A stretch of 44,080 bases of DNA, from IMG/VR virus record IMGVR_UViG_3300012005_000013, positions 1-44,080 of that record. One strand, written 5' to 3'. Under the pieces are notes generated by a model that saw only the letters and a list, made by a program, of their open reading frames with translations, was not told the origin of the DNA and did not search any database. Below, piece after piece: positions 121 through 39,240 of this stretch; position 1 is the first letter of the stretch, and each line of letters begins with the position of its first letter. The position numbers were made by a program, and so were the translations under genes. Origin of the DNA: a virus.

Positions 121-252
121 GTGGGCGGGTTCGACGACGCACGGCTAGTCCTGGACGCCGAGGCGCGGATCCGCCGCGCCCTACCCGTCTATGAGGAGGA
201 GGCGCTAAGAGCGCTCGCGGTCCTCGTCTCGATTCTGCTGCGGCTCTTGTAG
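121..252 (+). CDS. Possible small helical peptide (43 aa), convergent with the repressor
   Basis: A GTG at 121 follows a GAGGAG ribosome-binding site at 111-116. The 43-aa product begins MGGFDDARLVLDAEAR and ends in a hydrophobic stretch (LAVLVSILLRLL). Nearly every codon ends in G or C, as in the real genes here, and the product would form an amphipathic then hydrophobic helix. A TACGTT hexamer at 92-97 could be a -10 box. It overlaps the 3' end of the repressor gene by 48 bases on the opposite strand. No family is recognised. It may be real or a product of base composition. Confidence 0.35.
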   Translation: MGGFDDARLVLDAEARIRRALPVYEEEALRALAVLVSILLRLL

Positions 253-543
253 AGCCTCGCGCTCGCCCGTCGTGAGGATGCTCGACTCGCGGCGAACGTA
301 GCGCACACCGTTCAACTCGATCTCGTCCGGCTGCTCGATGCCGAGTAGATCGGCCAGCGGGACTCCGTACGCCTTCGCTAGACGTGCGGCGGTGTGCACA
401 CCGGGTTCCGCCTTCCCGTTCTCATATCGGCTGATGCTGCTCTTTGCGCATCCGGCAGCATCCGCCGCCTGATCCGCTGTCAGGCCAGACGACGCTCGTG
501 CGCGTCGGAAGCGGCGAGCCATCGCGTCCGGGTTCTCAGCCAT
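205..543 (-). CDS. XRE-family repressor (CI-like immunity regulator)
   Basis: This is a 112-aa DNA-binding protein. Residues about 8-65 form a classic XRE helix-turn-helix (GLTADQAADAAGCAKSSISR, then YENGKAEP). A short C-terminal part follows (ELNGVRYVRRESSI) and a charged tail. It has no LexA-type peptidase domain, so induction would not be by RecA-stimulated self-cleavage. I place the start at the ATG at 543 because a TAATCT hexamer lies at 557-552, 8 nt upstream, giving a leaderless message. A second ATG at 585, inside the operator palindrome, would add 14 residues. The gene is divergent from the Cro-like gene at 615 and very likely represses it through the inverted repeat at 583-617. Position and domain support the repressor role; binding is inferred. 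Confidence 0.8.
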   Translation of the reverse strand: MAENPDAMARRFRRARASSGLTADQAADAAGCAKSSISRYENGKAEPGVHTAARLAKAYGVPLADLLGIEQPDEIELNGVRYVRRESSILTTGEREALQEPQQNRDEDRERS

Positions 544-578
544 GTGAGGCGAGATTAGGGATATCTGCCCACTCGGGC

Positions 579-614
579 TTGACATGTGCCGGATTAGGTC
601 CTACGATCCGGCAC
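579..614 (+). promoter_or_regulatory. Rightward early promoter (PR-like), leaderless
   Basis: A perfect TTGACA -35 box lies at 579-584, followed by a 17-base spacer and a TACGAT -10 box at 602-607. The start codon of the next gene begins 7 nt later at 615, so the transcript should start at or next to the ATG with no leader. This is the best sigma-70 promoter I see in the window and probably drives the whole early operon. Confidence 0.75.
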
Positions 615-992: not shown

Positions 993-1253
993 ATGGCTAC
1001 CACCGTGCGGTCGATCGAGACCGCCCCAAGCCGACGAGGTGGGCGGAGTGTCCGCTACCTCATCGCCGGTCCGACGCGCGTGAAAGCGTGCACGGACCTG
1101 CTGACGATCAGCGGTCACGCGAGCCGGATGCGGCGCATCGCCGACGAGCTGTACGCCTGCGCCGACGAGATCGACCAGAGCCGGTCGATCGTAAGTCGGA
1201 TCCTCGGCTCGCTGCCGCAGCACGACACGCTGAATGGTCGGAGAGCCGCATGA
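993..1253 (+). CDS. Hypothetical protein (86 aa)
   Basis: The ATG at 993 is preceded by a GGAG ribosome-binding site at 981-984. The protein has a basic N-terminus (SRRGGRSVRYL) and a helical, mixed-charge C-terminal half (RMRRIADELYACADEIDQSR). I do not recognise a family. It is the first gene after the hairpin and its TGA overlaps the next start (ATGA), so it is probably translationally coupled to the HTH gene behind it. Confidence 0.6.
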   Translation: MATTVRSIETAPSRRGGRSVRYLIAGPTRVKACTDLLTISGHASRMRRIADELYACADEIDQSRSIVSRILGSLPQHDTLNGRRAA

Positions 1254-1624
1254 GCCCGCTCAGCCGCACCCGCCAGACAAACAGCATCACCCTCGACGGC
1301 CACCGCGTCCGCGAACTCCGCACCCGCATCGGCCTCAGCCAGCCCGACGTCGCCGCTCTCTCCGGCCTCTCAACCGGAACCATCGGCAACATCGAAGGCG
1401 GCAAGCGCCCGACCCTCACCGTCAACCCGGCGTGTCGCCTCGCCGCCGCACTCGGCGTTCGTCTCGAAGTCATCATCTGCCCGGCTCCGATGCCCGAAGT
1501 GTCGGCGCAGAGCGAAGCGCAGATCCAGCTCCGACTCCTCATGTCGCGAGTCGCGAAGCTCGAATCGGAGAACCAGCGACTCCGCGACAACGCCGCTGAC
1601 CACGTCCTCGGACAGGTGGCGTGA
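1250..1624 (+). CDS. XRE-family regulator with C-terminal coiled coil
   Basis: The 124-aa protein has an XRE helix-turn-helix at residues about 14-72 (RVRELRTRIGLSQPDVAALS, TGTIGNIEGGKRPTL). It ends in a leucine-rich, charged coiled coil (LRLLMSRVAKLESENQRLRD) that probably makes it dimeric. The start is the ATG of an ATGA overlap at 1250 with GGAG just upstream. A longer in-frame extension upstream lies in the preceding gene and looks like shadow sequence. It is the third HTH regulator in the first 1.6 kb. It may control early or late genes; its target is unknown. Confidence 0.75.
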   Translation: MSPLSRTRQTNSITLDGHRVRELRTRIGLSQPDVAALSGLSTGTIGNIEGGKRPTLTVNPACRLAAALGVRLEVIICPAPMPEVSAQSEAQIQLRLLMSRVAKLESENQRLRDNAADHVLGQVA

Positions 1625-2301
1625 TGACCGCGACCACCAAAGTCATCGCCGAGTCAATCAAGTCCGAGTCTCCCGTTCAGTGGAGCACGGAAGTCGCGAC
1701 GTCTTCGGGCGCGTACATGGATTTCGAGGAGCGCGATCGCCTCTTACGACGCGCTGCCAGCATCGAGATCAGCACCCATCTCTGTCGTCGCGGAAGCATG
1801 CTCGACGCCAAGACGCACGAGCAGTATTGGCGCGTCGGTCGAGGCCAACGATTCAAGCGAGGAGAGTCCTACCTCGGCAACGCATTGAATCAGAGCCGGC
1901 AGATCGACCTCAACTGGAAGCGAGTAACACGGGCGCGCGACGAGTTCCGAGCCGACCTGCGAGCGCTCTGGTCGTACTGGTCGCCCGTCCCGAATCTCAC
2001 GCTGTCCCAGGTCACGAAGATCTTCTGGAACAACGGCGTCAACAACTACGGACGGGACCTTCTGGAGACCCAGTCGTATTGGATTCGGAAGCGGCGACAC
2101 GCCGAGATTCGACGTGCTTCTACGCCGATCGTGAACGCCGCATACGAGTTCGCGAGGGTCTGGCCCCACAGCAGCGAGACCGCAGTCATGGAGTCCCTTT
2201 CGGAGTTCGCGAAGGACGTTGACGGCATTCTCGAAGCGCTCCTCGATTTGCATGACGGCAAGCGTGGAGACGAGTTCGACCCGAGGGAGCGTGAGTGGTA
2301 A
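1624..2301 (+). CDS. Hypothetical early protein (225 aa), Trp/Arg-rich
   Basis: The ATG at 1624 overlaps the preceding TGA by one base and follows an AGGTGG motif; a GTG three bases earlier is also in frame. The protein is rich in Arg, Trp and Tyr, with helices such as RARDEFRADLRALWSYW and SYWIRKRRHAEIRRAS. It shows no signal peptide, membrane segment or catalytic motif I can name. It sits between a regulator and a clamp-like protein in the early operon, which suggests a DNA-metabolism or host-takeover role without proving it. Confidence 0.65.
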   Translation: MTATTKVIAESIKSESPVQWSTEVATSSGAYMDFEERDRLLRRAASIEISTHLCRRGSMLDAKTHEQYWRVGRGQRFKRGESYLGNALNQSRQIDLNWKRVTRARDEFRADLRALWSYWSPVPNLTLSQVTKIFWNNGVNNYGRDLLETQSYWIRKRRHAEIRRASTPIVNAAYEFARVWPHSSETAVMESLSEFAKDVDGILEALLDLHDGKRGDEFDPREREW

Positions 2302-2846
2302 TGGCGACTCTGAAGATCCCCGATACCTGCAAGATCGAGCGCTGCGTCAGTAGCGACGACACCAAGACGCTTGGACACCCGAACCTTCGGACATTCGCCG
2401 ACGGTGAACGAGTCGTCATCGCTACTGACGCGGTCAAGATGGTCGTGATCCCGGTCGATACGGACGCGGTCGATGGCGTGATTCCGATGGAAGTCGTCAA
2501 GGCGGCTCGCCGATCCCATGTGGAGATCGACCTTGAACAATCGACCGCGACCGTCACCGAGGACGAGCACCACGAAACGTGGAAGCGTTCAGAGGGTCCG
2601 TATCCTGACTGCGAAGCAATCATGGCGAGGGCGGCCGTCCCTGGCGCGCCTGGTACTCACACCTTCGCGGTGAACGCTCGGCATCTGCTTGCCCTCCAGA
2701 AGGCGATGGGGACCTTGACGCTGGTCATCACTGTCGATACGTCGGATGCGCGGGCGCCGATCTACGTCGCGCCGTGGGGAATGTGCGGATCCGTCGGAGC
2801 GCGCGGCGCCGTGATGCCGATGAACATCTCAAAGGACGAGTCATGA
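2301..2846 (+). CDS. Short DNA sliding-clamp-like protein (DNA polymerase III beta-like)
   Basis: At 181 aa this is about half the length of a bacterial beta clamp (about 370 aa). The pattern fits: RVVIATDAVKMVVIPVD resembles the strand that ends a clamp domain, EGPYPDCEAIM matches the YPD linker element, FAVNARHLLALQKAM resembles the next domain's helix, and the end (GARGAVMPMNI) matches the beta-clamp C-terminus (VMPMRL). Clamps tether polymerases and other enzymes to DNA. A shortened form would need more subunits per ring, or it may work as a decoy or loader partner. Start: ATG at 2301, overlapping the previous stop. The assignment comes from motif resemblance only. Confidence 0.55.
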   Translation: MATLKIPDTCKIERCVSSDDTKTLGHPNLRTFADGERVVIATDAVKMVVIPVDTDAVDGVIPMEVVKAARRSHVEIDLEQSTATVTEDEHHETWKRSEGPYPDCEAIMARAAVPGAPGTHTFAVNARHLLALQKAMGTLTLVITVDTSDARAPIYVAPWGMCGSVGARGAVMPMNISKDES

Positions 2847-3049
2847 CTCCCGCCGAGGTCCTCCACATCTTCCACCGCCTCGAAGCGCAAGTCAACTGTG
2901 CCCAGGATCCAGTCAGCGCGTGCTGGGCGAGCGACGCACGCTACGCGTTCGCGGACGCCAAAGGGCTCAGCGACGGCGAGGGCGAGATCGACTACGCCGC
3001 CGTAGAAGTCCTCTACGCCGAGGTGTACGGAGAGGAGTGGGCGTCGTGA
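2843..3049 (+). CDS. Hypothetical protein (68 aa)
   Basis: This small acidic protein starts at an ATGA overlap with AGGA upstream. It has a helical N-terminus (PAEVLHIFHRLEAQVN) and an acidic C-terminus (EVLYAEVYGEEWAS). No family is recognised. It is coupled to both neighbours by four-base overlaps. Confidence 0.6.
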   Translation: MTPAEVLHIFHRLEAQVNCAQDPVSACWASDARYAFADAKGLSDGEGEIDYAAVEVLYAEVYGEEWAS

Positions 3050-3252
3050 GCGTCCCGATTCACAAGGTCGAGCCGCCGCGCATGTCGTACGACGACCTCG
3101 ATCGCAACGACCTCGAAGACCGCCTCCACGACTTGTGGAAGCTCGTCGATGTGATCGCTGACGAGTTCGCCGCAGCCGGCTATCCGAGCGAGGCGGGAGA
3201 GCTCTACGACTCGTCGTGGATGATCCTGCAGGTCGCGAGGCGACTCTCGTGA
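3046..3252 (+). CDS. Hypothetical protein (68 aa)
   Basis: The GTG start lies in a GTGA overlap and GAGGAG lies upstream. The product is acidic and helical (DLEDRLHDLWKLVDVIADEF). No family is recognised. Confidence 0.6.
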   Translation: MSVPIHKVEPPRMSYDDLDRNDLEDRLHDLWKLVDVIADEFAAAGYPSEAGELYDSSWMILQVARRLS

Positions 3253-3596
3253 GCGCCGCGCATGACGAGGCGTGGGACATCAGGATCACCGAGCCGACGC
3301 ATCCTGTCGCCGCTGCGATCCAGCAGCGAGCCAGCGAGGCCGAAGCCAGGCTCGCCGAGACGCGCGAGTACCTCGCCGCGGCTGAGGCTGCACTCGACGA
3401 ACAAGCCGAGACGATCCGTTGCCTCGAAAAGCGGAATCGGCGCGTGAGCGCGGATCGCGCGCACCTCCTCGATATCGCTCGCGAGGAGGAGCGAGACGCG
3501 TTGACCGCAGCGTTCTGCGGCGGCATCCTCGCCGCGGCTCTGGCGGTCGCTGTCTGGGTGTGGGTGCTTCCGTGGATCGCGGGGATCGTCGCATGA
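3249..3596 (+). CDS. Coiled-coil protein with C-terminal membrane anchor
   Basis: The 115-aa product has a long charged coiled coil (residues about 25-70, for example ASEAEARLAETREYLAAAEA). A single hydrophobic segment of about 25 residues follows (GILAAALAVAVWVWVLPWIA). This tail-anchored layout would place the coil in the cytoplasm. Its early position argues against a lysis role; superinfection exclusion or membrane tethering is possible but unproven. The start is the GTG of a GTGA overlap. Confidence 0.6.
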   Translation: MSAAHDEAWDIRITEPTHPVAAAIQQRASEAEARLAETREYLAAAEAALDEQAETIRCLEKRNRRVSADRAHLLDIAREEERDALTAAFCGGILAAALAVAVWVWVLPWIAGIVA

Positions 3597-3703
3597 GACG
3601 CCTCTGGAACTGGGAGCAGGACCGCGACAACGCCGCCGAGTACGACCATCGAGGCTGGGTCGTCCGCCTCATCCGAATCATCTTGAGAAGGAGCGCGAAG
3701 TGA
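3593..3703 (+). CDS. Small hypothetical protein (36 aa)
   Basis: ATGA and GTGA overlaps on both sides tie this 36-aa reading frame into the operon. A GGGGA motif lies upstream. The product is short and basic at the end (WVVRLIRIILRRSAK), possibly an amphipathic helix. No function can be given. Confidence 0.45.
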   Translation: MRRLWNWEQDRDNAAEYDHRGWVVRLIRIILRRSAK

Positions 3704-3939
3704 GCAGGACCATCTCTCACTCCGAGATCTCGACGATGCTCGGCTGCCAGCAGCGCCACGCCTACCAGTACACCGGGGCTCTCACTGGCGGCGTGACGCT
3801 CAAGCCGGCAGAGACGCACCAGCGGCTCAAGTCCGGCAAGGCGATGCACGCCGCGCTAGAGGTCTGGCACACCGGCGGAACCCTCCAAGCGTCCATCGAG
3901 GCGCTCACCGATGCGCTCGCCGAGGAGGAGTCGTGCTGA
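3700..3939 (+). CDS. Cas4/RecB-like nuclease, N-terminal half (split gene, part 1)
   Basis: This 79-aa protein matches the start of a PD-(D/E)XK exonuclease of the Cas4/AddB/RecB group. It has SHSEISTMLGCQQRHAYQY, in which Cys16 would be the isolated first ligand of a [4Fe-4S] cluster, then SGKAMHAALE with the conserved catalytic His. It then stops, while the catalytic Asp, Glu and Lys and the other three Cys lie in the next gene. The GTG start lies in a GTGA overlap and AAGGAG lies upstream. The two halves probably assemble into one enzyme that makes recombinogenic 3' ends for the Sak4-like ATPase downstream. A sequencing error splitting one gene is the alternative. Confidence 0.65.
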   Translation: MSRTISHSEISTMLGCQQRHAYQYTGALTGGVTLKPAETHQRLKSGKAMHAALEVWHTGGTLQASIEALTDALAEEESC

Positions 3940-4700
3940 CGCTCACACTCCCTGATCCGGTCCTCGCCGAGGGCGAGCGGCTCGCAGCGATCCTCAGCCA
4001 CTACGCGCGGACCGTGCCGCGGCTCGACCTCGTCGCAACCGAAGTCGAGTTCGACGTCCCGCTGCCCGGAAGGGTCACTGGCGCATCATCAAGCAGGTAC
4101 CGATTCTCGGGCCGCTTCGACGGCGTGACCGCCGAGCCGATGATCGCCGAGTTCAAGCTCCGAGGCGTGCTGTCGAGCGTCGAGCAAGTCCTCCTCAGCC
4201 GGCAGACGAGGCTCTACTCGTGGGCGTACTGGCGCCTGCACGGAGTCTATCCCGAGGGCGTCATCGTCGAGGAGATCCTGAACGTCGCGCCCGGCGAGCC
4301 GAAGATCCTCAAGAGCGGCCAGCCGTCGCACGACAAGCGCCAGGCGATCACCGTCGAGGCGTACCTAAACGCCTGCGTGCGAGCGAACGAGACGATGAGC
4401 GAAGAGACGATCGACGCGCTCCGAGCCCGCGTCTGGCATCGCCGACACACGATCAGGCTCACACCGCGCGAGATCCGAGAGGCCGGACGACAACTCGTCT
4501 CCGCCGCCCGCCTCGTCGGGATGCTCGACCGGGGAGAGCTCTACCCGGTCCGCAACCCGAATCCGTCGCGCTGTCCGAGCTGCCCATTCCGAGCTCCCTG
4601 CGCGGACCACGATCCCCGGTTCGCGCTCGAACTCGCCGACGCAGGCGTGTACGAGCTGCAACCCGCCAAGAAGGACCGACCCGGAAGGAAAGCCGCCTGA
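3933..4700 (+). CDS. Cas4/RecB-like PD-(D/E)XK nuclease, catalytic half (split gene, part 2)
   Basis: The 255-aa product carries the nuclease core: FDG (Asp), then IAEFKLR (the E-x-K motif), then SRQTRLYSW (the Q-x-x-x-Y motif). Near the end RCPSCPFRAPC supplies three Cys of a Cas4/AddB-type iron-sulfur cluster. The fourth Cys and the conserved His are in the gene before it. The start GTG at 3933 overlaps the previous stop by 7 bases (GTGCTGA) and follows a strong GGAGGAG, so it is made as a separate, coupled chain. The enzyme should resect DNA ends. The fold assignment is good; the need for both halves is inferred from the distribution of residues. Confidence 0.75.
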   Translation: MLTLTLPDPVLAEGERLAAILSHYARTVPRLDLVATEVEFDVPLPGRVTGASSSRYRFSGRFDGVTAEPMIAEFKLRGVLSSVEQVLLSRQTRLYSWAYWRLHGVYPEGVIVEEILNVAPGEPKILKSGQPSHDKRQAITVEAYLNACVRANETMSEETIDALRARVWHRRHTIRLTPREIREAGRQLVSAARLVGMLDRGELYPVRNPNPSRCPSCPFRAPCADHDPRFALELADAGVYELQPAKKDRPGRKAA

Positions 4701-5431
4701 TGGCGATCACGATCATCGAGAATCCGCCCGCAGAGGCGCAGCTCGCGAAGTTCCTGCTCTACGGAGCGCCCGGCAGCGGCAAGACGATCGCCGCCTGCGG
4801 CCTCCCGAGCCCGATCCTCTACATCAACTGTGAGGGCCCCGACGCCGTCACGACGGGACGCCGGCTACACGCCGAGTCTCGCATCCTAGAGGTCAGGCCC
4901 GAGACGGTCGATGATCTCCGAGCCGCCGTCGCATTCGCGCTCGACCCGCGGAACGAGATCGAGTCGATCGCGCTCGACACGATCGGCGAGGCGTACAAGC
5001 TCGTCCTCTCCGAACTCTCCTCGTCGTCTCCTCGGCCGAGCCTCCAGAACTACGGCGACTCCAACGTGACCATCGCCCGGCTCGCACGGACGCTCCGCGA
5101 CGCGCCGCTGAACGTCGCGATCCTCGCTCACGAGGAAGTCCTCGACAACGACGACGACCGGATCGTGCGACCCTCGACGGGCGGCAAGAAGCTCCCCGAA
5201 GAGGTCATGGCGATGATGAGCATCGTCGCCTACACCGCCGTCGTCCCGGCGCACGAGGAGAAGCCGAAGCGGTACGTCGGCCAGCTCGTCGAGGCGAAGG
5301 GCCGACGCGCGAAGGATCGCTCGGGCGTCCTCGGAGACGTCCGCGACCTCGACCTCGGCGAGTGGATCGCAGCGATCCGCGGAGCCACCACAGAGTCCGC
5401 CGCCGTGGCGGCTGAGAAGGAGTCCAAGTGA
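4700..5431 (+). CDS. Sak4-like single-strand annealing ATPase (AAA_24)
   Basis: The 243-aa protein has a Walker A P-loop (LLYGAPGSGKT, residues about 19-29), a Walker-B-like strand (IESIALDTIGEAYK) and a later strand ending NVAILAHEEV. This is a RecA-like core of the size of phage Sak4 recombinases. These proteins anneal single-stranded DNA together with an SSB. It lies directly between the nuclease and an SSB-like gene, the usual three-gene recombination cassette. The ATG at 4700 overlaps the upstream TGA by one base and AAGGAA precedes it. Confidence 0.8.
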   Translation: MAITIIENPPAEAQLAKFLLYGAPGSGKTIAACGLPSPILYINCEGPDAVTTGRRLHAESRILEVRPETVDDLRAAVAFALDPRNEIESIALDTIGEAYKLVLSELSSSSPRPSLQNYGDSNVTIARLARTLRDAPLNVAILAHEEVLDNDDDRIVRPSTGGKKLPEEVMAMMSIVAYTAVVPAHEEKPKRYVGQLVEAKGRRAKDRSGVLGDVRDLDLGEWIAAIRGATTESAAVAAEKESK

Positions 5432-5895
5432 CCATCACCCTGAACCTGTCAGGCGTCGAAGCGTCGACCGGCGGAGCCGTCCTCGGAGTCGGCAAGCATC
5501 GAGCGACGTTCACCGAGAGCGTCGAAGGAGAGTCGAGCGGCGGCCATCCACAGTTCGAGGTCAAGCTCTCCAACGACGAGGGCTCGATCCGCGACTGGGT
5601 CGTGATCACCGACAAGAGCCTCTGGAAGGTCCGCCAGATGATCGAGGCCGTCGGCCACGAGATCCCGGATGGCGAGTTCAAGTTCCAAGCCTCGTGGCTC
5701 GTCGGCTGCGAGGTCGGGATCACCGTCGCGATCGAGAAGTACAAGGACGAGGATAAGACCCGCGTCAAGTACTACGACCGGCTGCCCGAGACGAAGGCCA
5801 AGAAGATCTCCAGCGGACATGCCTCGACAGGAGTGGACGACGACGATTCGATTCCGTTCCGCTGGATCGACGACGGCGTGCTGGACATCATCTGA
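5428..5895 (+). CDS. SSB-like / DUF669-type ssDNA-binding protein
   Basis: The 155-aa product is beta-rich (GCEVGITVAIEKYKDEDKTR, VKYYDRLPETK), like the DUF669-type proteins found beside Sak4 ATPases. Near the end it has DDDDSIPF, which resembles the acidic SSB tip that docks repair enzymes, but about 12 more residues follow it here. It starts at the GTG of a GTGA overlap after AAGGAG. The likely role is to coat ssDNA during replication and annealing. Assigned by context and composition. Confidence 0.6.
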   Translation: MTITLNLSGVEASTGGAVLGVGKHRATFTESVEGESSGGHPQFEVKLSNDEGSIRDWVVITDKSLWKVRQMIEAVGHEIPDGEFKFQASWLVGCEVGITVAIEKYKDEDKTRVKYYDRLPETKAKKISSGHASTGVDDDDSIPFRWIDDGVLDII

Positions 5896-6104
5896 TGGAC
5901 GTCACCGACCAGGCGACTCGCCAGATGCTCACCCTCGGCCGCGCCATGCTCGCGGCGGCCGAGGAGGAACTACGAGACGCCGAATCACGAGTCGTCGCGA
6001 TCACGGACCAGCTCGACGCCGCACGCGCGGATCGCAGCCGGACTGAGAGGCGGCGGAACCGGCTCGCATGGTTCGTCTCGCAGACCGAGCGCAGCGATGA
6101 CTGA
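5895..6104 (+). CDS. Small coiled-coil protein (69 aa)
   Basis: The sequence is almost wholly helical and charged (MLAAAEEELRDAESRVVAIT, ARADRSRTERRRNRL), indicating a coiled coil. The ATG overlaps the upstream TGA by one base. Its 3' end overlaps the excisionase gene by 8 bases. No family is recognised. Confidence 0.6.
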   Translation: MDVTDQATRQMLTLGRAMLAAAEEELRDAESRVVAITDQLDAARADRSRTERRRNRLAWFVSQTERSDD

Positions 6105-6282
6105 CCGCTTGCTGACGACGCGCGAGGTAGCGACGATCCTGCACTGCCACCAGGACACGGTGCTCCGCAAGGTCGCCAAGCGGAGCATCCCGGCGTTCAA
6201 GCTCGACACGGGCGAGATCCGGTATTGGGAGTCCGAGATCCACGCGTGGATCGAGAAGCACCGGATCGGTAGCGCGGCGTGA
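6097..6282 (+). CDS. xis: Excisionase / recombination directionality factor (HTH_17, MerR-like)
   Basis: The 61-aa protein is a winged helix of the AlpA/HTH_17 type: LTTREVATILHCHQDTVLRK, then the GEIRYWESEIHAWIEKH wing region. Phage excisionases of this size lie immediately upstream of the integrase, as here, with a GTGA overlap. It would bind attP/attL DNA and bias integrase toward excision. Some such proteins also act as repressors. Confidence 0.75.
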   Translation: MTDRLLTTREVATILHCHQDTVLRKVAKRSIPAFKLDTGEIRYWESEIHAWIEKHRIGSAA

Positions 6283-7385
6283 CTAGCCAGCGAGGCCAGA
6301 TCATCCGCATCGACCGAGGCAAGTACGCGGTGCGTTGGCGCGATGGAGTGAGTCGCCGGCAGCGGACCGGGTTCGCGTCGCGCGGCGAGGCTCGCAACTG
6401 GATCGACCTCGAACTGCAACGCATCCGCTCGGGCACCGCGACTCGGCCGCACGCGACGTTCCAAGAGCTTAGGACCGTCTTCATGGCCTCGTATTCGGCG
6501 GCGCCGTCGACGACGACGTGGATGCTCTTCCACCTGGAGAAGATCGAGAAGCAGTACAAGCGTCACGAGATCAGCCGCCTCGACGCTTCCGAGATCGCCG
6601 TATGGCGCCAATCGCTCCCGCCGGGGAGCGCTCACCAGACGATTAGGGTGTTTCGTCAGGTGATGGCGCAGGCCGTCGCGTGGGGATGGATCGACCGCAA
6701 CGTCCTCGCCGCCGTCAAGAATCCGCAGCCGCCCCGCACCGAGTTCTCGACCTTCGCCGGCTGGTCCGACGTGGAGCGGATCGCGGTCGAACTCGGAGAC
6801 CACTACCGAGCCGTCATCATCACGGGCGTCGGCACCGGCCTCCGCGTCGAAGAGATCTTCGGCCTCGAATGGAGCGACGTCGACCTCGACGCTCGCAGCG
6901 TCATGGTCCGCCGCGCCTACGCCAAGGGACGGCTCAAGCGGTACACGAAGACGAGCGGATCGACTCGCCGCGTGCCGCTCCGCAGAATCGTCGCCGACGA
7001 ACTCGCCCGCCACTCGACGTCCACGGGCAGGACGCGCGGCGTCGTCTTCACGAACGAGCACACCGGCCAGCGGATCAACCTTGCGAGCTGGCGACAGCGC
7101 GAGTGGGCGCCCGCATTCGAGGCGGCCGGCGCCGACCGGTTGAGGCCGTACGACATGCGCCACACGTACGCATCTTGGTCGCTCGCCGCGGGCGTGCCGC
7201 TCTTCTCGGTCGCTAGGCGGATGGGCACGAGCGCGCAGCAGATCCAACTCACCTACGGCCACCTCGTCGACGGCGCGGATGACGCCGAACGAGACCTGCT
7301 CGACGCGTGGGATTCAAGCGTTTCCCTGCAAGTTGGACGCGCTGGGGACGCATCACCGAACGAGGAAGGAACAAGCGATGAGTAG
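6279..7385 (+). CDS. int: Tyrosine integrase
   Basis: This 368-aa integrase has an N-terminal arm-binding region (about 1-60), a SAM-like core-binding domain (about 65-160) and a catalytic domain. Catalytic features: Arg in GTGLRVEEIFGL, Lys in the KTSGSTRRVPL hairpin, PYDMRHTYASW (RH motif; the usual His three residues before this Arg is Tyr), and the nucleophile Tyr in TYGHLVDG. It starts at the GTG of a GTGA overlap with xis. attP lies just behind its stop. The enzyme should integrate the genome at a host tRNA-Ala gene. Confidence 0.95.
   Translation: MTSQRGQIIRIDRGKYAVRWRDGVSRRQRTGFASRGEARNWIDLELQRIRSGTATRPHATFQELRTVFMASYSAAPSTTTWMLFHLEKIEKQYKRHEISRLDASEIAVWRQSLPPGSAHQTIRVFRQVMAQAVAWGWIDRNVLAAVKNPQPPRTEFSTFAGWSDVERIAVELGDHYRAVIITGVGTGLRVEEIFGLEWSDVDLDARSVMVRRAYAKGRLKRYTKTSGSTRRVPLRRIVADELARHSTSTGRTRGVVFTNEHTGQRINLASWRQREWAPAFEAAGADRLRPYDMRHTYASWSLAAGVPLFSVARRMGTSAQQIQLTYGHLVDGADDAERDLLDAWDSSVSLQVGRAGDASPNEEGTSDE
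7333..7351 (+). repeat. attP arm-site candidate, left copy
   Basis: TTGGACGCGCTGGGGACGC recurs at 7569-7587 in the same orientation with a single difference at position 12. The two copies flank the tRNA-derived core. Directly repeated arm-type sites bound by the integrase N-terminus are usual in attP. This copy lies inside the 3' end of int. Confidence 0.55.
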
Positions 7386-7407
7386 CAATCTGGCTCTAGG
7401 AGCCAAG

Positions 7408-7451
7408 TGGACCCTACCGGGATCGAACCGGTGGCCTCCTGCGTGCAAGGC
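7408..7451 (-). other. attP: attP core: 3' half of tRNA-Ala(TGC)
   Basis: Read on the minus strand this is the end of a tRNA: anticodon loop with TGC, GCAGG stem strand, 5-base variable loop AGGCC, a perfect T arm (ACCGG, TTCGATC, CCGGT), acceptor strand AGGGTCC and discriminator A. A U at position 70 fits the G3-U70 identity pair of tRNA-Ala. No 5' half is present, so it is not a tRNA gene but the attP core that restores the host tRNA on integration. Identity may continue a few bases past 7451. CCA is not encoded. Confidence 0.85.
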
Positions 7452-7568
7452 CAATCTCGGGGTAGACGCACCGGGTAGCAAGCGTACGCAAGCCTTGGCT
7501 GCGAGCGGGATCGAGGTCTCCGCGTTCGGCTCGCCGCCGAGCATCCAGACACCACGATTCTGGGCGTG

Positions 7569-16691: not shown

Positions 16692-18253
16692 TGGTGACGA
16701 TGGTAGAGCGGCCCCGCGGGGCCGCTACTTCTGCGTGGGCGGAGTACGCGTCGGATTCCGATGGCGAGAGCTTCGATGCGTTCTGCGCCGACTTCTTGAT
16801 CCACACCGTGGACGAGTGGGACGGCGATCCGGTCGTGCTCGAGGAGTGGCAGGCCGACGTGTTCGGCGAGGCGCTCGCTGTCACCGAGGAGGGGCGGTGG
16901 CACTGGCGAACCGTCGTTCTTTGCCTGCCGAGGGGAAATGGCAAGACGACGATGATGGCGGCGTACGCGCTGTACCGCCTGATGACGGATGGTGGCGATC
17001 CGCAGATCCTGTTGGCCGCGTCGTCGAACGAGCAGGCCGACCTCGCGTTCGAGATGGTCGAGGCGTTTATTCGCTCCTCGCCGGCGCTCGGCGCGAGGCT
17101 GACGGTTCGGTCGCATGACGGCGAGATCCTCCGCAACGACAAGCGCGGCAAGATCAAGCGCGTCGCCGCGAACGATCGAGGCCTGCACGGATATAACGCG
17201 AGTCTCGTTGTGTGTGACGAGCTGCACGTGTGGGGGACGCCGACGCTGCGCAAGGCGTGGAGCTCGATCAAGAGTGGTATGCGGAAGCGGCCTTCCGCCC
17301 AGGCGGTTGTGATCACGACGGCCGGCGAGGCGCATGAGCGGGCGACCGGGATCCTCGGCTCGATGATCGACGGAAACGAGAAGCAGGGCGAGGTCGAGGC
17401 GCGTCCCGGGCTGCGGATCAGCCGCGACCACTCGTCGAGGACGCTGATCTATAACTGGACGGCGCCGACGATGGATCCGCACGACGTGGCGGCGATGAAG
17501 CTGGCCAACCCTGCGTCGTGGATCACCGAGGAGACGCTCGCCGAGGTCGCGAACGACCCGTCGATGCGGGTCGACGAGATCCTGCGGCTGAACGGCGGCG
17601 TGTGGGCGTCGAGCGACCGGACGTGGATCACGGTTGATTCGTGGCGCGGTGCTCGCGTCGACGAGCAGCTGCGCGATGGCGAGATGGTCTGCCTCGGATT
17701 CGACGGTTCGAGGATCTACGACTCGACGGCGCTCGTCGCGTGTCGCGTGTCGGATGGGATGCTGGCGCCGCTGCGGATCTGGACGAGGCCGGAGCGCGTC
17801 TCCGAGTGGGAGGTTCCTGCTGGCGAGGTTGACGCCGCCGTCGCTGATGCGATCAGTCGTTTCAAGGTGCTTCGGCTATATGCGGATCCGCCGTATTGGC
17901 AGTCTGAGATCGACTCGTGGGCGCTTGCGTACGGGTCGCCGCCCGTCGTCCGCTTCGAGACCAGCAAGCCGAGGATGAGCGCCGCTGCTGAGCGGTTCCG
18001 GACGGACTTGATCGCGGGCGACCTCGTCCACAACGGCGATTTGACTCTCGAGGCGCACGTCTTGGCGGCACAGATGCGCGTGAACCGGTTCGGGTACGTG
18101 CTGGAGAAGCCGTTGTCGGCAGACAATCGGAGTCGGCTGAAGATCGACTGCGCCGTCGCTGCGGTCTGCGCCTATGAGGCGCGTTGCGACGCGGTCGCGA
18201 AGGGTGAGGACGCTGTGCGTGTCCGGAGTCGAAGATTGGTGTCGTTCTCGTGA
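16691..18253 (+). CDS. terL: Terminase large subunit
   Basis: The 520-aa protein has the packaging ATPase motifs: Walker A VLCLPRGNGKTTMMAAY and Walker B ASLVVCDELHVWG, followed by a coupling region (QAVVITTAGEAHE). The C-terminal nuclease domain has acidic residues in CLGFDGSRIYDSTALV, RLYADPPYW and KIDCAVAAVCAYEA. It pumps DNA through the portal and cuts the concatemer. The start is the ATG at 16691; the long open extension upstream is shadow of terS. Typical length. Confidence 0.93.
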   Translation: MVTMVERPRGAATSAWAEYASDSDGESFDAFCADFLIHTVDEWDGDPVVLEEWQADVFGEALAVTEEGRWHWRTVVLCLPRGNGKTTMMAAYALYRLMTDGGDPQILLAASSNEQADLAFEMVEAFIRSSPALGARLTVRSHDGEILRNDKRGKIKRVAANDRGLHGYNASLVVCDELHVWGTPTLRKAWSSIKSGMRKRPSAQAVVITTAGEAHERATGILGSMIDGNEKQGEVEARPGLRISRDHSSRTLIYNWTAPTMDPHDVAAMKLANPASWITEETLAEVANDPSMRVDEILRLNGGVWASSDRTWITVDSWRGARVDEQLRDGEMVCLGFDGSRIYDSTALVACRVSDGMLAPLRIWTRPERVSEWEVPAGEVDAAVADAISRFKVLRLYADPPYWQSEIDSWALAYGSPPVVRFETSKPRMSAAAERFRTDLIAGDLVHNGDLTLEAHVLAAQMRVNRFGYVLEKPLSADNRSRLKIDCAVAAVCAYEARCDAVAKGEDAVRVRSRRLVSFS

Positions 18254-19803
18254 GTTACTACCAGGGCGCGTTCCAAGGGTATCCGGACGGCGGCGGCGTG
18301 GGGCCGACACGGTTCTGGGCCGACTATGGGATGCCGCGGCCGCTGATCGTCGCTCCGGCATTGCCGCCGGGTCTCGACGGGTACGAGCCGGCGTCGCCGG
18401 AGTGGTGGCGTGACCGGTTGATCGGCAGGATCGGGTTGCGGTGGCAGCGCGTCGCTCTCGCCGAGTCGTACTACCAGGGCTATCACCGCCTCGCCTATGC
18501 GACGGATAAGTACCAGTCGGCGTTCGGCGACATGTTCCGCGCCTTCTCGGATAACTGGATGCGGATCGTCGTCGACTCGTGCGCGGAGCGCCTCCAAGTC
18601 CAGGGGTTCCGCCTCGATTCGGGTGCGACGGGCGACCAGTTGGAGATCGGCGACAAGGCGGCGTGGGGGGTTTGGCAGCGGAATCGTCTCGATTCGGAGC
18701 AGATCCTCGCTCATACGACGGCGATCGTGACCGGCCAGTCGTACATCCTCGTCGGCTTCGACGATGACGGGTCGAGTCTGATCCAGGTCGAGCATCCCGC
18801 GCACGCGATCGTCGAGATGGAGCCGTCGACTCGGCGTCGTCGCCTCGCCGGGTTGCGGACGTTCCAGGATGTCGACGGGTCGGTCGTCGTGACGCTCTAC
18901 CTGCCGGACGAGATCTACTGGTGGCGCTATCAAGACAGGGCCTTCACGCTCATCGAGACGTGGGGAAACAACCAGCCGGCGACGGGAAAGAATCCGCTCG
19001 GCGTGGTGCCGCTGATCCCGCTCGTGAACTCGCCGACGACCGCGCAGCGCGAAGGCGAGTCGGACGTGCTGCCCGTCGTTCCGCTCCAGGACGCCGTCAA
19101 CAAGCTCGTCCTGGACATGATGGTCTCGTCGGAGTTCGCCGCGTTTCCTCAGCGCTGGGCGACGGGTCTTGAGATTCCCGAGGACGAGTCGGGGAATCGG
19201 CAGGTGCCGTTCCAGGTCGCGCTCGACAAGATCCTGACGTCTGCCGATCCGCAGACGAAGTTCGGCGATTTCAACGCCGTCAACATGGCGAACTATACGG
19301 GGCCGATCAAGGAGCTCGTCTCGCATATCGCGGCGCAGACATCGACGCCGCCGCACTACTTGATGAACGAGGGGATCAAGAACGTCTCGGCCGACGCGAT
19401 CAAGAGCGCTGAGGCGTCGCTCGTCGCGAAGGTGAAGCGGAAGATGCCGATCTTCGCGGAGGCGTGGGAAGAGGCGATCTCGCTGGCGTCGTTCATCGAC
19501 GGGATCATCCCGACGCCGGAGGCGTGGTCGAGTGAGGTGATCTGGGTCGATCCCGAGTCGCGGACGAAGACGCAGGAGATCGATTCGATCATGAAGCTCG
19601 GCGCGCTCGGCCTGCCGCATATCGCGCTCTGGAATATGATCCCGGGCGTGTCTCCGTCGGAGGTCGAGCGGTGGCGGACGCTGCGCGAGCTCGAGTTGGC
19701 AACGGATCCTGGCTTCTTCGGCGCCCAGTTGACGCCGCAGGATCCCGCGGTCGCGAGTTCGATCCCGCTCGCCGGCAAGGGTGGGAACTTGTATGACGGC
19801 TAG
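18250..19803 (+). CDS. Portal protein (SPP1 gp6-like)
   Basis: The 517-aa protein matches the SPP1-type portal family: RIVVDSCAERLQVQGFRLDS, PLIPLVNSPTTAQREGESDV, LQDAVNKLVLDMMVSSEFAA and TPPHYLMNEGIKNVSADAIK. Portals form a dodecamer at one capsid vertex through which DNA is pumped. It starts at the GTG of a GTGA overlap after terL and is followed by the MuF-like gene, the standard order. Confidence 0.9.
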   Translation: MSYYQGAFQGYPDGGGVGPTRFWADYGMPRPLIVAPALPPGLDGYEPASPEWWRDRLIGRIGLRWQRVALAESYYQGYHRLAYATDKYQSAFGDMFRAFSDNWMRIVVDSCAERLQVQGFRLDSGATGDQLEIGDKAAWGVWQRNRLDSEQILAHTTAIVTGQSYILVGFDDDGSSLIQVEHPAHAIVEMEPSTRRRRLAGLRTFQDVDGSVVVTLYLPDEIYWWRYQDRAFTLIETWGNNQPATGKNPLGVVPLIPLVNSPTTAQREGESDVLPVVPLQDAVNKLVLDMMVSSEFAAFPQRWATGLEIPEDESGNRQVPFQVALDKILTSADPQTKFGDFNAVNMANYTGPIKELVSHIAAQTSTPPHYLMNEGIKNVSADAIKSAEASLVAKVKRKMPIFAEAWEEAISLASFIDGIIPTPEAWSSEVIWVDPESRTKTQEIDSIMKLGALGLPHIALWNMIPGVSPSEVERWRTLRELELATDPGFFGAQLTPQDPAVASSIPLAGKGGNLYDG

Positions 19804-25093: not shown

Positions 25094-25287
25094 GCGCCAA
25101 GAGGGCTGCTCGTGTGCGTGGTCTCGCGCCGACCGATACCGGATCCGGCGTCTACCCGCACGGAGAGCACGTCAATCTCGATCCCAGCGATGAGCATGTC
25201 AAGCGTCTCCTCGACGCGGGGCAGATCGAGTGGGTCAACGTCGAAGAAGAGTCCAAGCCTCGAGCCGGAAAGGCGGGTGACGCCTGA
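25090..25287 (+). CDS. Small hypothetical protein before the sheath (65 aa)
   Basis: The ATG at 25090 lies in an ATGA overlap. The product starts basic (SAKRAARVRGLAP), then has EHVKRLLDAGQIEWVNVEEE, a pattern seen in small proteins that precede tail sheath genes. Role unknown. Confidence 0.55.
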   Translation: MSAKRAARVRGLAPTDTGSGVYPHGEHVNLDPSDEHVKRLLDAGQIEWVNVEEESKPRAGKAGDA

Positions 25288-26732
25288 TGCCCCGGCCTGG
25301 CGTTGACGTCCAGCAGACCAGTCGCCCCGCACCGCGTGGGCCGCTGAATAACACCGCGACGCTGTTCATCGTCGGTAAGACGACCAGCGGACGCGTCGAC
25401 ATCGCGGTTCCCGTTCACGGGATCGCCGAGTTCGAGCAGAACTTCGGCGTGCGCCGCTCAGACAGCGGGCTCTGGGATTTCCTCGACGAGCACTTCCGCG
25501 AGGGCGGAGCCCTGGCGTATGTGGGCCGAGTTGTCGGCCCCGCGGCGACCGTCGCGACGCTGACGATCGGCCTCACGACCGGCGTCCAGATCAACGCTTC
25601 CGGGCCTGGCCCGGCGGGATCCCTCTACTCCGTCGGCGTCGTCGCCGGAACGATCGCCGGGACGATCGCATACCAGATCACCGGACCGAACAGCTACATC
25701 GAGCAGTCGCCCGACTTCGCCGCCACCGGCTCCAACGCCGACGCCGCGAACTGGTCGCAGCAGTCTCCGACGATCCGAATCATCGCGCTCGGAACCGTCA
25801 CGCCACCCGTCACCGCCGCCGCTCCGCTCGTCGGCGGCACCGAGGACACGTCGAACATCACCGAAGTGCAGTACGGCGACATGTTGCCGCTCTTCCTCCG
25901 CGATTACGGTCCCGGCCAGGTCGAGTTCGCCGACCTCACGACGAGCGCCGCGCACGCGCTGCTCGTCGCGCATGTCGGTCCGTACAATCGGTGCACCGTC
26001 TTGCAGGCTCCGAGCGGGTCGACTCAGTCGGCGGTCCAGACGCTCGTCGCGTCGGCGCAGACGTCGGCTGGCGTTGATTCGTGGCGCGTTGCGATGGCGC
26101 CGCAGTGGGCGGTCATCCCCGGCCTCGCGCCGTTGCAGACGCGGCTCGTGCCGTACTCGGCGGTCCTGACCGGTCAGATCGCCAGGACCGACGCGGCGTT
26201 CAACGTCGGCACGCCACCCGCCGGGCCTGACCGCGGATCGAGCGTCTACGCGATCGCGCTCGACGTCAACTACAACGACGTGACCATCGCCGCGCTGAAC
26301 ACGAGCGGCGTCATCACCGCGAAGATCGCGTCGGGCGGAGTCGCCACCTGGGGATACCGCTCGATCGCGAACCCGTCGACGTACCCGCAGTACCGCGAGT
26401 TCTCGGGCAACCGCGCGACGATGGCGATCCAATCCGACCTCGAAGCGGTCGCGTTGACGCACCTGTTCCGCGTCATCGACGGCCGAGGACACGAGATCAC
26501 GGACTTCGCGCTCGACATCCAGAGCGTCCTACTCGACTACTGGAACGACGACGTGCTCTTCGGCGACACCGCCGCCGACGCGTTCTCGGTCTCCGCAGGA
26601 CCAACAATCAACACGCCGACGACGATCGCGAACGGCGAGCTGCACGCAATCGTGATGCTCCACACCAGCCCATTCGCTGAGTGGGTACAGCTCAACATCG
26701 TCAAGGTCAAGAGCCAGGAGGCGGTCTCCTAA
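25287..26732 (+). CDS. Tail sheath protein
   Basis: The 481-aa protein has the sheath family N-terminus (GPLNNTATLFIVGKTTSGRV, followed by EFEQNFGVR), a variable middle, and a conserved C-terminus (TIANGELHAIVMLHTSPFAE, then WVQLNIVKV). It shows that the tail is contractile. The middle domains (about 90-200) look like surface insertions. ATG at 25287 overlaps the previous stop by one base; the stop overlaps the tube gene. Confidence 0.9.
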   Translation: MPRPGVDVQQTSRPAPRGPLNNTATLFIVGKTTSGRVDIAVPVHGIAEFEQNFGVRRSDSGLWDFLDEHFREGGALAYVGRVVGPAATVATLTIGLTTGVQINASGPGPAGSLYSVGVVAGTIAGTIAYQITGPNSYIEQSPDFAATGSNADAANWSQQSPTIRIIALGTVTPPVTAAAPLVGGTEDTSNITEVQYGDMLPLFLRDYGPGQVEFADLTTSAAHALLVAHVGPYNRCTVLQAPSGSTQSAVQTLVASAQTSAGVDSWRVAMAPQWAVIPGLAPLQTRLVPYSAVLTGQIARTDAAFNVGTPPAGPDRGSSVYAIALDVNYNDVTIAALNTSGVITAKIASGGVATWGYRSIANPSTYPQYREFSGNRATMAIQSDLEAVALTHLFRVIDGRGHEITDFALDIQSVLLDYWNDDVLFGDTAADAFSVSAGPTINTPTTIANGELHAIVMLHTSPFAEWVQLNIVKVKSQEAVS

Positions 26733-38457: not shown

Positions 38458-39240
38458 ATGGCGCGCAAGATCCTAGTCAACCTCGACGTCACGAACAATA
38501 GGGTTGTCAATCTCGCGGACGGATCGGCCTCGACTGACGCGGTGACGCTGCAACAGCTCCAGGCCGGGATCCGCGGCCTCGACTGGAAGCCGAATGTCCG
38601 CGTCGCCGGAACGACGAATATCTCGCTCGCCGCGCCCGGAGCGACGATCAACGGCGTCACGATGGCCTCCGGCGACCGGGTGCTACTCAAGGATCAGACG
38701 GCGGGCGCAGAGAACGGCATCTGGGTCTGGACGGGCGCCTCGTCGGCGCTGACGCGAGCCGTCGACGCCGACACCGGGACGCTGACCGCGGGGCTCGCCG
38801 TGACCGCGGTTGAGGGCACCGTCGACGGCGACGTCGTCTGGCAGCTGACGACGAACGATCCGATCACCGTCGGCACCACCGCGCTCGCCTTCACGAAGCT
38901 CGGCGGATCGAGCGCCACCTACACGGCTGGCGTCGGCCTGTCGCTCGTCGGCAGCGCGTTCGCGGTCGTCGCCGGCAGCGGGATCATCGCCGACGTCACC
39001 TCGACCAGGATTGATCCGGCCGTCGTGACCCGAAAGTACGCGATCAACGTTCCTTCGGGCGCGACGACGGCGACGATCACGCACTCGCTCGGCACGCTCG
39101 ACGTCATCGTGCAGATCGTCGAAGTCTCCTCCGGCGCCGTCGTCGACGCGGACGTCGTCGTGGCGACGACGAACACGGTCACGGTGACGTTCGCCGTCGC
39201 TCCGACGGGCGCCCAGTACAGAGCGATCGTCCTCGGCTAA
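38458..39240 (+). CDS. Tail fibre protein (260 aa)
   Basis: A good GGAG lies before the ATG. The N-terminus (ARKILVNLDVTNNRVVNLAD, then GSASTDAVTLQQLQAGIRGL) is the classic fibre entry module. A domain with VRVAGTTNISLAAPGATING and DRVLLKDQTAGAENGIWVWT follows, widespread in phage fibres. The C-terminal part is beta-rich (HSLGTLDVIVQIVEVSSGAV). It is probably a trimeric receptor-binding fibre. Confidence 0.8.
   Translation: MARKILVNLDVTNNRVVNLADGSASTDAVTLQQLQAGIRGLDWKPNVRVAGTTNISLAAPGATINGVTMASGDRVLLKDQTAGAENGIWVWTGASSALTRAVDADTGTLTAGLAVTAVEGTVDGDVVWQLTTNDPITVGTTALAFTKLGGSSATYTAGVGLSLVGSAFAVVAGSGIIADVTSTRIDPAVVTRKYAINVPSGATTATITHSLGTLDVIVQIVEVSSGAVVDADVVVATTNTVTVTFAVAPTGAQYRAIVLG

Follow-up and report, generated by a model that had tools for sequence, protein, structure and literature searches.

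In one viral genome, the two ends of a Cas4/RecB-like nuclease lie on two overlapping open reading frames, which raises the question of whether the virus makes this enzyme from two chains or whether a normal single gene has been broken, either in the phage or in its sequence. The window, meaning the whole stretch of DNA analysed, is an IMG/VR virus record of 44,080 bp with a G+C content of 66%. It carries genes for terminase, portal, major head protein, tail sheath, tape measure and DnaB helicase, also encodes a phage integrase and an excisionase-like HTH protein, and is that of a temperate contractile-tailed phage. The features of the nuclease locus are as follows.

3688 to 3693, plus strand: AAGGAG, Shine-Dalgarno-like site of ORF A
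3700 to 3939, plus strand: ORF A, GTG start, 79 aa, N-terminal part of a PF12705 Cas4/AddB-like nuclease
3923 to 3928, plus strand: AGGAGG, Shine-Dalgarno-like, 4 nt ahead of the GTG of ORF B; also codes part of the conserved Glu-Glu(-Glu) of ORF A
3933 to 3939, plus strand: 7-nt overlap GTGCTGA, containing the start of ORF B and the stop of ORF A
3933 to 4700, plus strand: ORF B, GTG start, 255 aa, C-terminal part of the PF12705 nuclease

One nuclease on two reading frames

Each ORF alone matches PF12705 above the gathering score, ORF A over positions 1-70 (E 1.1e-6) and ORF B over positions 97-246 (E 6.3e-6), and a continuous reading through both gives a single match over 1-246 (E 1.6e-15). 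The phrog_1218 "exonuclease" family is likewise divided (8-69 in A, 108-329 in B), and the read-through protein aligns without a break over the junction with the single gene of Weizmannia phage Youna2, at 26.9% identity. The homology is collinear, and A and B are opposite ends of a single PF12705 (Cas4/AddB/RecB-like) nuclease, as an initial annotation made from the sequence had proposed.

That annotation had also assigned a Cys and a His to the first chain and the Asp, E-x-K, Q-x-x-x-Y and three Cys to the second. An alignment with 90 distinct relatives bears this division out for all ten residues, each retained in 88-90 of the 90. Those of ORF A are Cys16 (90/90) and His50 in a GxxxH motif (88/90); the catalytic columns of ORF B are Asp63 (90/90), Glu73 (D or E in 90/90), Lys75 (90/90), Gln91 (90/90) and Tyr95 (90/90), followed by Cys214 (89/90), Cys217 (90/90) and Cys223 (88/90), in the numbering of B. 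The His, Asp, (D/E)xK and QxxxY motifs of PF12705 nucleases are thus all present across the pair, and so is the four-Cys pattern of the Cas4/AddB type, with one N-terminal Cys (C16, on A) and three C-terminal ones (C214, C217 and C223, on B). In Cas4 and AddB, the N- and C-terminal parts are stapled together by an Fe-S cluster bound to this one-plus-three set, and Sso0001, a single-chain Cas4, needs every one of its four Cys to be soluble (PMC3466216). By analogy, the A+B nuclease would have a four-Cys metal site, probably Fe-S. Cas4 (Sso0001), AddB, AdnA and ACE1 share with the window the Cys arrangement and the H-D-ExK-QxxxY series; in those proteins, however, the Cys set closes within one chain, whereas Cys16 of the window lies on a separate polypeptide. 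AddB and AdnA in addition carry a helicase part, unlike the phage enzymes.

Structure prediction is consistent with the further proposal of a four-Cys set that must span both chains, as is the Cys requirement of Sso0001. The AlphaFold model of ORF B alone (pLDDT 80) begins with a loop and then a helix and has a confident catalytic core, at about 79-97 by block over residues 11-200. Confidence falls to 53-60 in the Cys segment (residues 201-240), against 82-94 in the counterpart of a single-chain relative (L022), a comparison between different sequences and alignments; this loss fits a Cys module that needs chain A and is only suggestive of one. The model of L022 itself has a pLDDT of 89, and its top fold matches in the PDB are ACE1 (9iab), AdnA (6ppr and 9np6) and AddB (3u4q and 4cej), with human EXO5 (7lw7) and Cas4 Sso0001 (4ic1) also among them. 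The junction maps to a loop of this model between helices 77-83 and 86-100, an inter-helix position where a chain end is predicted to be tolerable.

The 7-base overlap of the initial annotation is present as described, with ORF B in the -1 frame relative to ORF A. Third-position G+C is of the coding type in both (0.90 in A, 0.84 in B), and codon usage places the switch of frame at 3925-3933, so that the stop of A, the start of B, the Shine-Dalgarno (SD) sequence and the codon-usage switch all fall inside about 15 nt. The sequence of the junction contains no homopolymer. We considered whether part of the domain is missing at this point and rejected the idea, as the overall spacing is normal (His-to-Glu 64, against 62-86 in relatives). 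The E-to-Y spacing is 24, against 16-18 in 86 of 90 relatives, leaving about seven extra residues exactly at the junction.

Relatives and neighbours of the divided gene

To place the split among related phages, we compared 111 nuclease loci, which include repeats of the same contig and represent 90 distinct proteins. The nuclease is one uninterrupted ORF in 109 of them, one (L020) is cut by a contig end, and the window alone is split. Loci fetched through the neighbouring ATPase, a retrieval that cannot be biased by the frame of the nuclease, were single-gene in all complete cases, and the nuclease was in one piece in every row listed from a spread sample of 452 phage records. Two apparent exceptions were rejected: L020 resembled an N-terminally truncated nuclease, but its ORF runs off the start of the contig, and LittleFella, which looked partial by tblastn, has one 353-aa gene.

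The initial annotation had named a single fused gene in relatives as one of two observations that would refute a two-subunit enzyme, and a single gene is what 109 of 109 complete relatives have. No second genome with a split nuclease was found among these, none of which is closer than about 27% identity, and the collections searched held no relative above that level. Searches for related loci with ORF B, the AAA_24 ATPase and A1 yielded either no relative or a pattern that could not be used; those with the portal and terminase gave only relatives of 26-41%, all of them without this nuclease, and DNA-level searches of phages and plasmids gave nothing. The split is known from one contig and is derived relative to the single gene of all relatives found. 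Because those relatives are single-gene but at most about 27% identical, they show that the split state is derived and do not show that it is an artefact.

The nearest known counterparts are the phage PF12705 "Cas4-like" exonucleases of phrog_1218, for example those of Weizmannia phage Youna2, Bacillus phage BSTP12 and Curtobacterium phage Shrew (gp83). They resemble the window in fold, in all ten motif residues and in their place directly upstream of AAA_24 and DUF669/SSB genes, but they are single chains of about 330-410 residues, whereas the window has 79 + 255 aa and a best identity of about 27%. Downstream of ORF B, the operon continues with two genes, and the same kind of overlap is seen between its neighbouring genes.

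4700 to 5431, plus strand: AAA_24 (Sak4-like, RecA-type) ATPase, PF13479 E 2.4e-15, overlapping ORF B by 1 nt
5428 to 5895, plus strand: gene in the SSB/DUF669 position, assigned by position and weak PHROG matches only (phrog_3724, function unknown, E 1.6e-9; phrog_14876, 1.6e-6)

AAA_24 lies immediately downstream of the nuclease in 105 of the 108 loci with both in reach, the window counted, and a DUF669/SSB gene occupies the corresponding place in L003, L004, L006 and L009. The order in annotated phages is nuclease, AAA_24, DUF669/SSB, and Sak4 genes often adjoin DUF669-type SSBs (PMC5928155). The window has the order of a Sak4-type recombination module, namely nuclease, AAA_24 (the Sak4-like annealase) and SSB-position gene, and because of this context the A/B enzyme is most likely the end-resecting exonuclease of such a module. 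A CRISPR-associated Cas4 was rejected: over the stretch examined (1088-7385) the nuclease is surrounded by a phage early operon with the recombination module and the integrase, and no cas1/cas2 or CRISPR stands beside it. Phage members of PF12705 are not CRISPR-associated (PMC5704561).

A shorter ORF was seen in one of the other loci, L012 (IMGVR_UViG_3300025009_000193), where positions 5563-6108 encode 181 aa beside AAA_24 and SSB-like genes. It has the RecB-like motifs GTAAHKIIE, DFSFVADRR, VDYKTG and LQLYVYAF and lacks the Cys cluster; from its sequence, it is possibly a minimal form of the same nuclease.

Two cistrons, a read error or a broken gene

The initial annotation had taken a strong ribosome-binding site (RBS) of its own for ORF B as a mark of two genes. 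The site is there, since AGGAGG stands 4 nt ahead of the GTG, but as an argument it is weak, being coded by a conserved Glu-Glu motif. Specifically, GAGGAGGAG codes Glu75-77 of ORF A, and Glu occupies columns 76 and 77 in 69/90 and 79/90 of the single-chain relatives (77-88%). At the position of the junction, 44% of single-chain relatives have an SD-consensus match of at least 5 nt, while the rate at other positions in these genes is 19%. Because Glu-Glu is conserved in single-chain relatives, the SD-like stretch is a piece of the ancestral gene's coding sequence, and we rejected taking the RBS alone as proof of two genes. A sequence that arose from Glu codons may nevertheless work as an RBS.

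How often chance would produce such a junction was estimated from random one-base deletions in the long genes of the window. In 11.6% an A-type stop lay no more than 12 nt from the change, in 7.5% a start codon was at hand as well, and an SD match came in addition to both in 0.67% (at least 5 nt) or 0.08% (at least 6 nt). Allowing for the conserved Glu codons, we estimate that the last figure rises to about 1-3%.

On this evidence, we give about an even chance to a real, translationally coupled two-chain nuclease made from two overlapping cistrons. In its favour, neither half has lost a catalytic or Cys residue, and stop, start, SD and codon switch coincide in a way that 0.08% of random deletions match when the SD is counted. 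Against it stand the single contig and the lack of any split among complete relatives (0/109), together with an SD that conserved Glu codons explain and a spacing that is slightly short. This weighting and those of the alternatives below are judgements, not computed posteriors, and a few per cent are left for anything else.

A sequencing or assembly error, by which a normal single gene has acquired a net one-base frame error near 3925-3940 in this contig, is an unlikely explanation that still deserves serious weight. All complete relatives have a single ORF at the corresponding place, the read-through aligns in one piece to Youna2 with one PF12705 match, and the SD could be coincidental Glu coding; moreover, lone frame transitions bridged by homology are expected to be mostly sequencing errors (PMC3711429). 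The same study holds that frameshift errors should lack an RBS, and its authors discarded candidates with a strong downstream RBS (PMC3711429). The junction, on the other hand, lacks a homopolymer, and no other gene among those tested is broken. An error would by chance have to hit a loop between two helices at a point where a stop, a GTG and AGGAGG stand together (0.08% with the SD, 7.5% without), and it leaves unexplained the extra junction residues, which a misread of a single base would not produce.

Rather improbable, in our judgement, is a real but inactivating indel in a defective variant or prophage, in which the ORFs would be debris or only B would be made. The split occurs once only, and a temperate phage with an integrase may be sampled as a prophage, where losing a recombination gene is tolerated. 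Coding bias nonetheless persists in both halves, with every motif residue in place, and B keeps a plausible start and SD. The terminase, portal, head, tail sheath, tape measure, DnaB and integrase genes, which are the major genes tested, are all uninterrupted, and there is therefore no sign of poor assembly or of a decaying prophage.

Programmed -1 ribosomal frameshifting, or hopping, would make a single-chain protein, and it has in its favour that B is in the -1 frame of A with an SD-like element just upstream of the stop of A. Known SD-stimulated recoding sites have an SD-like element upstream. Stimulators of this type are mentioned in PMC3711429. We consider recoding very improbable, because ORF A has no in-frame X XXY YYZ slippery heptamer, the codons TCG TGC would re-pair with GTC GTG, with mismatches, after a -1 slip, and local structure is not significant (z 0.48).

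Returning to two cistrons, we suggest that a single ancestral nuclease gene underwent fission into two overlapping cistrons in one virus, an event that would have been survivable because the conserved Glu-Glu codons were already RBS-like and the break fell in an inter-helix loop. Ribosomes ending A at TGA would start B at the overlapping GTG, using for initiation the AGGAGG that also codes the last glutamates of A, and such coupling would yield roughly matched amounts of the two chains. Chain A, with its N-terminal helices, Cys16 and His50, would dock on chain B, with the RecB core and three Cys, so that the active site is formed again, and the four-Cys metal staple (probably Fe-S) restored by A and B together would also tie the chains to each other. 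The full form of this proposal is an obligate two-chain PD-(D/E)XK nuclease with Cys and His on a 79-residue chain, an inter-chain Fe-S cluster and coupling through a Glu-Glu-codon RBS, and we put it forward tentatively, as possible though short of probable. Coupled overlapping pairs such as drrAB and the fs-gene clusters of PMC3711429 likewise overlap in different frames, the start and RBS of the second ORF lying at the stop of the first; such pairs are usually separate proteins or domains, whereas the halves described here form a single catalytic domain.

If real, this arrangement would be a natural split of one catalytic domain across its metal cluster. It would offer a ready test of Fe-S staples as points of inter-chain assembly and of gene survival after fission by reuse of SD-like coding sequence, and Glu-Glu codons near inter-helix loops may then allow internal initiation in single-chain relatives as well. 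If not, the locus holds a phage exonuclease of the usual kind whose sequence contains one frame error.

Further observations on the phage

Two overlapping ORFs on opposite strands near the start of the window (205-585, minus; 444-824, plus) show XRE-like (Cro/C1) features and are likely the immunity region; the Pfam search of this region used the minus-strand ORF (205-585). Just downstream of the integrase gene, positions 7404-7452 on the minus strand read as the 3' half of a tRNA-Ala (anticodon TGC), which is likely the attP core. ARAGORN found no whole tRNA in the window, and searches of host genomes and IMG/VR with the tRNA-Ala half gave no identical sequence.

The portal (18250-19803) matched 2,596 phage records, with Streptomyces and Thermobifida phages at the top (36-38%). 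The head genes are thus akin to those of actinophages, yet the phage is contractile-tailed, with a tail sheath gene at 25287-26732. Positions 38458-39240 lie amid the tail genes, yet their PHROG matches, which are strong (E 7.9e-62), are to proteins of head decoration and virion structure.
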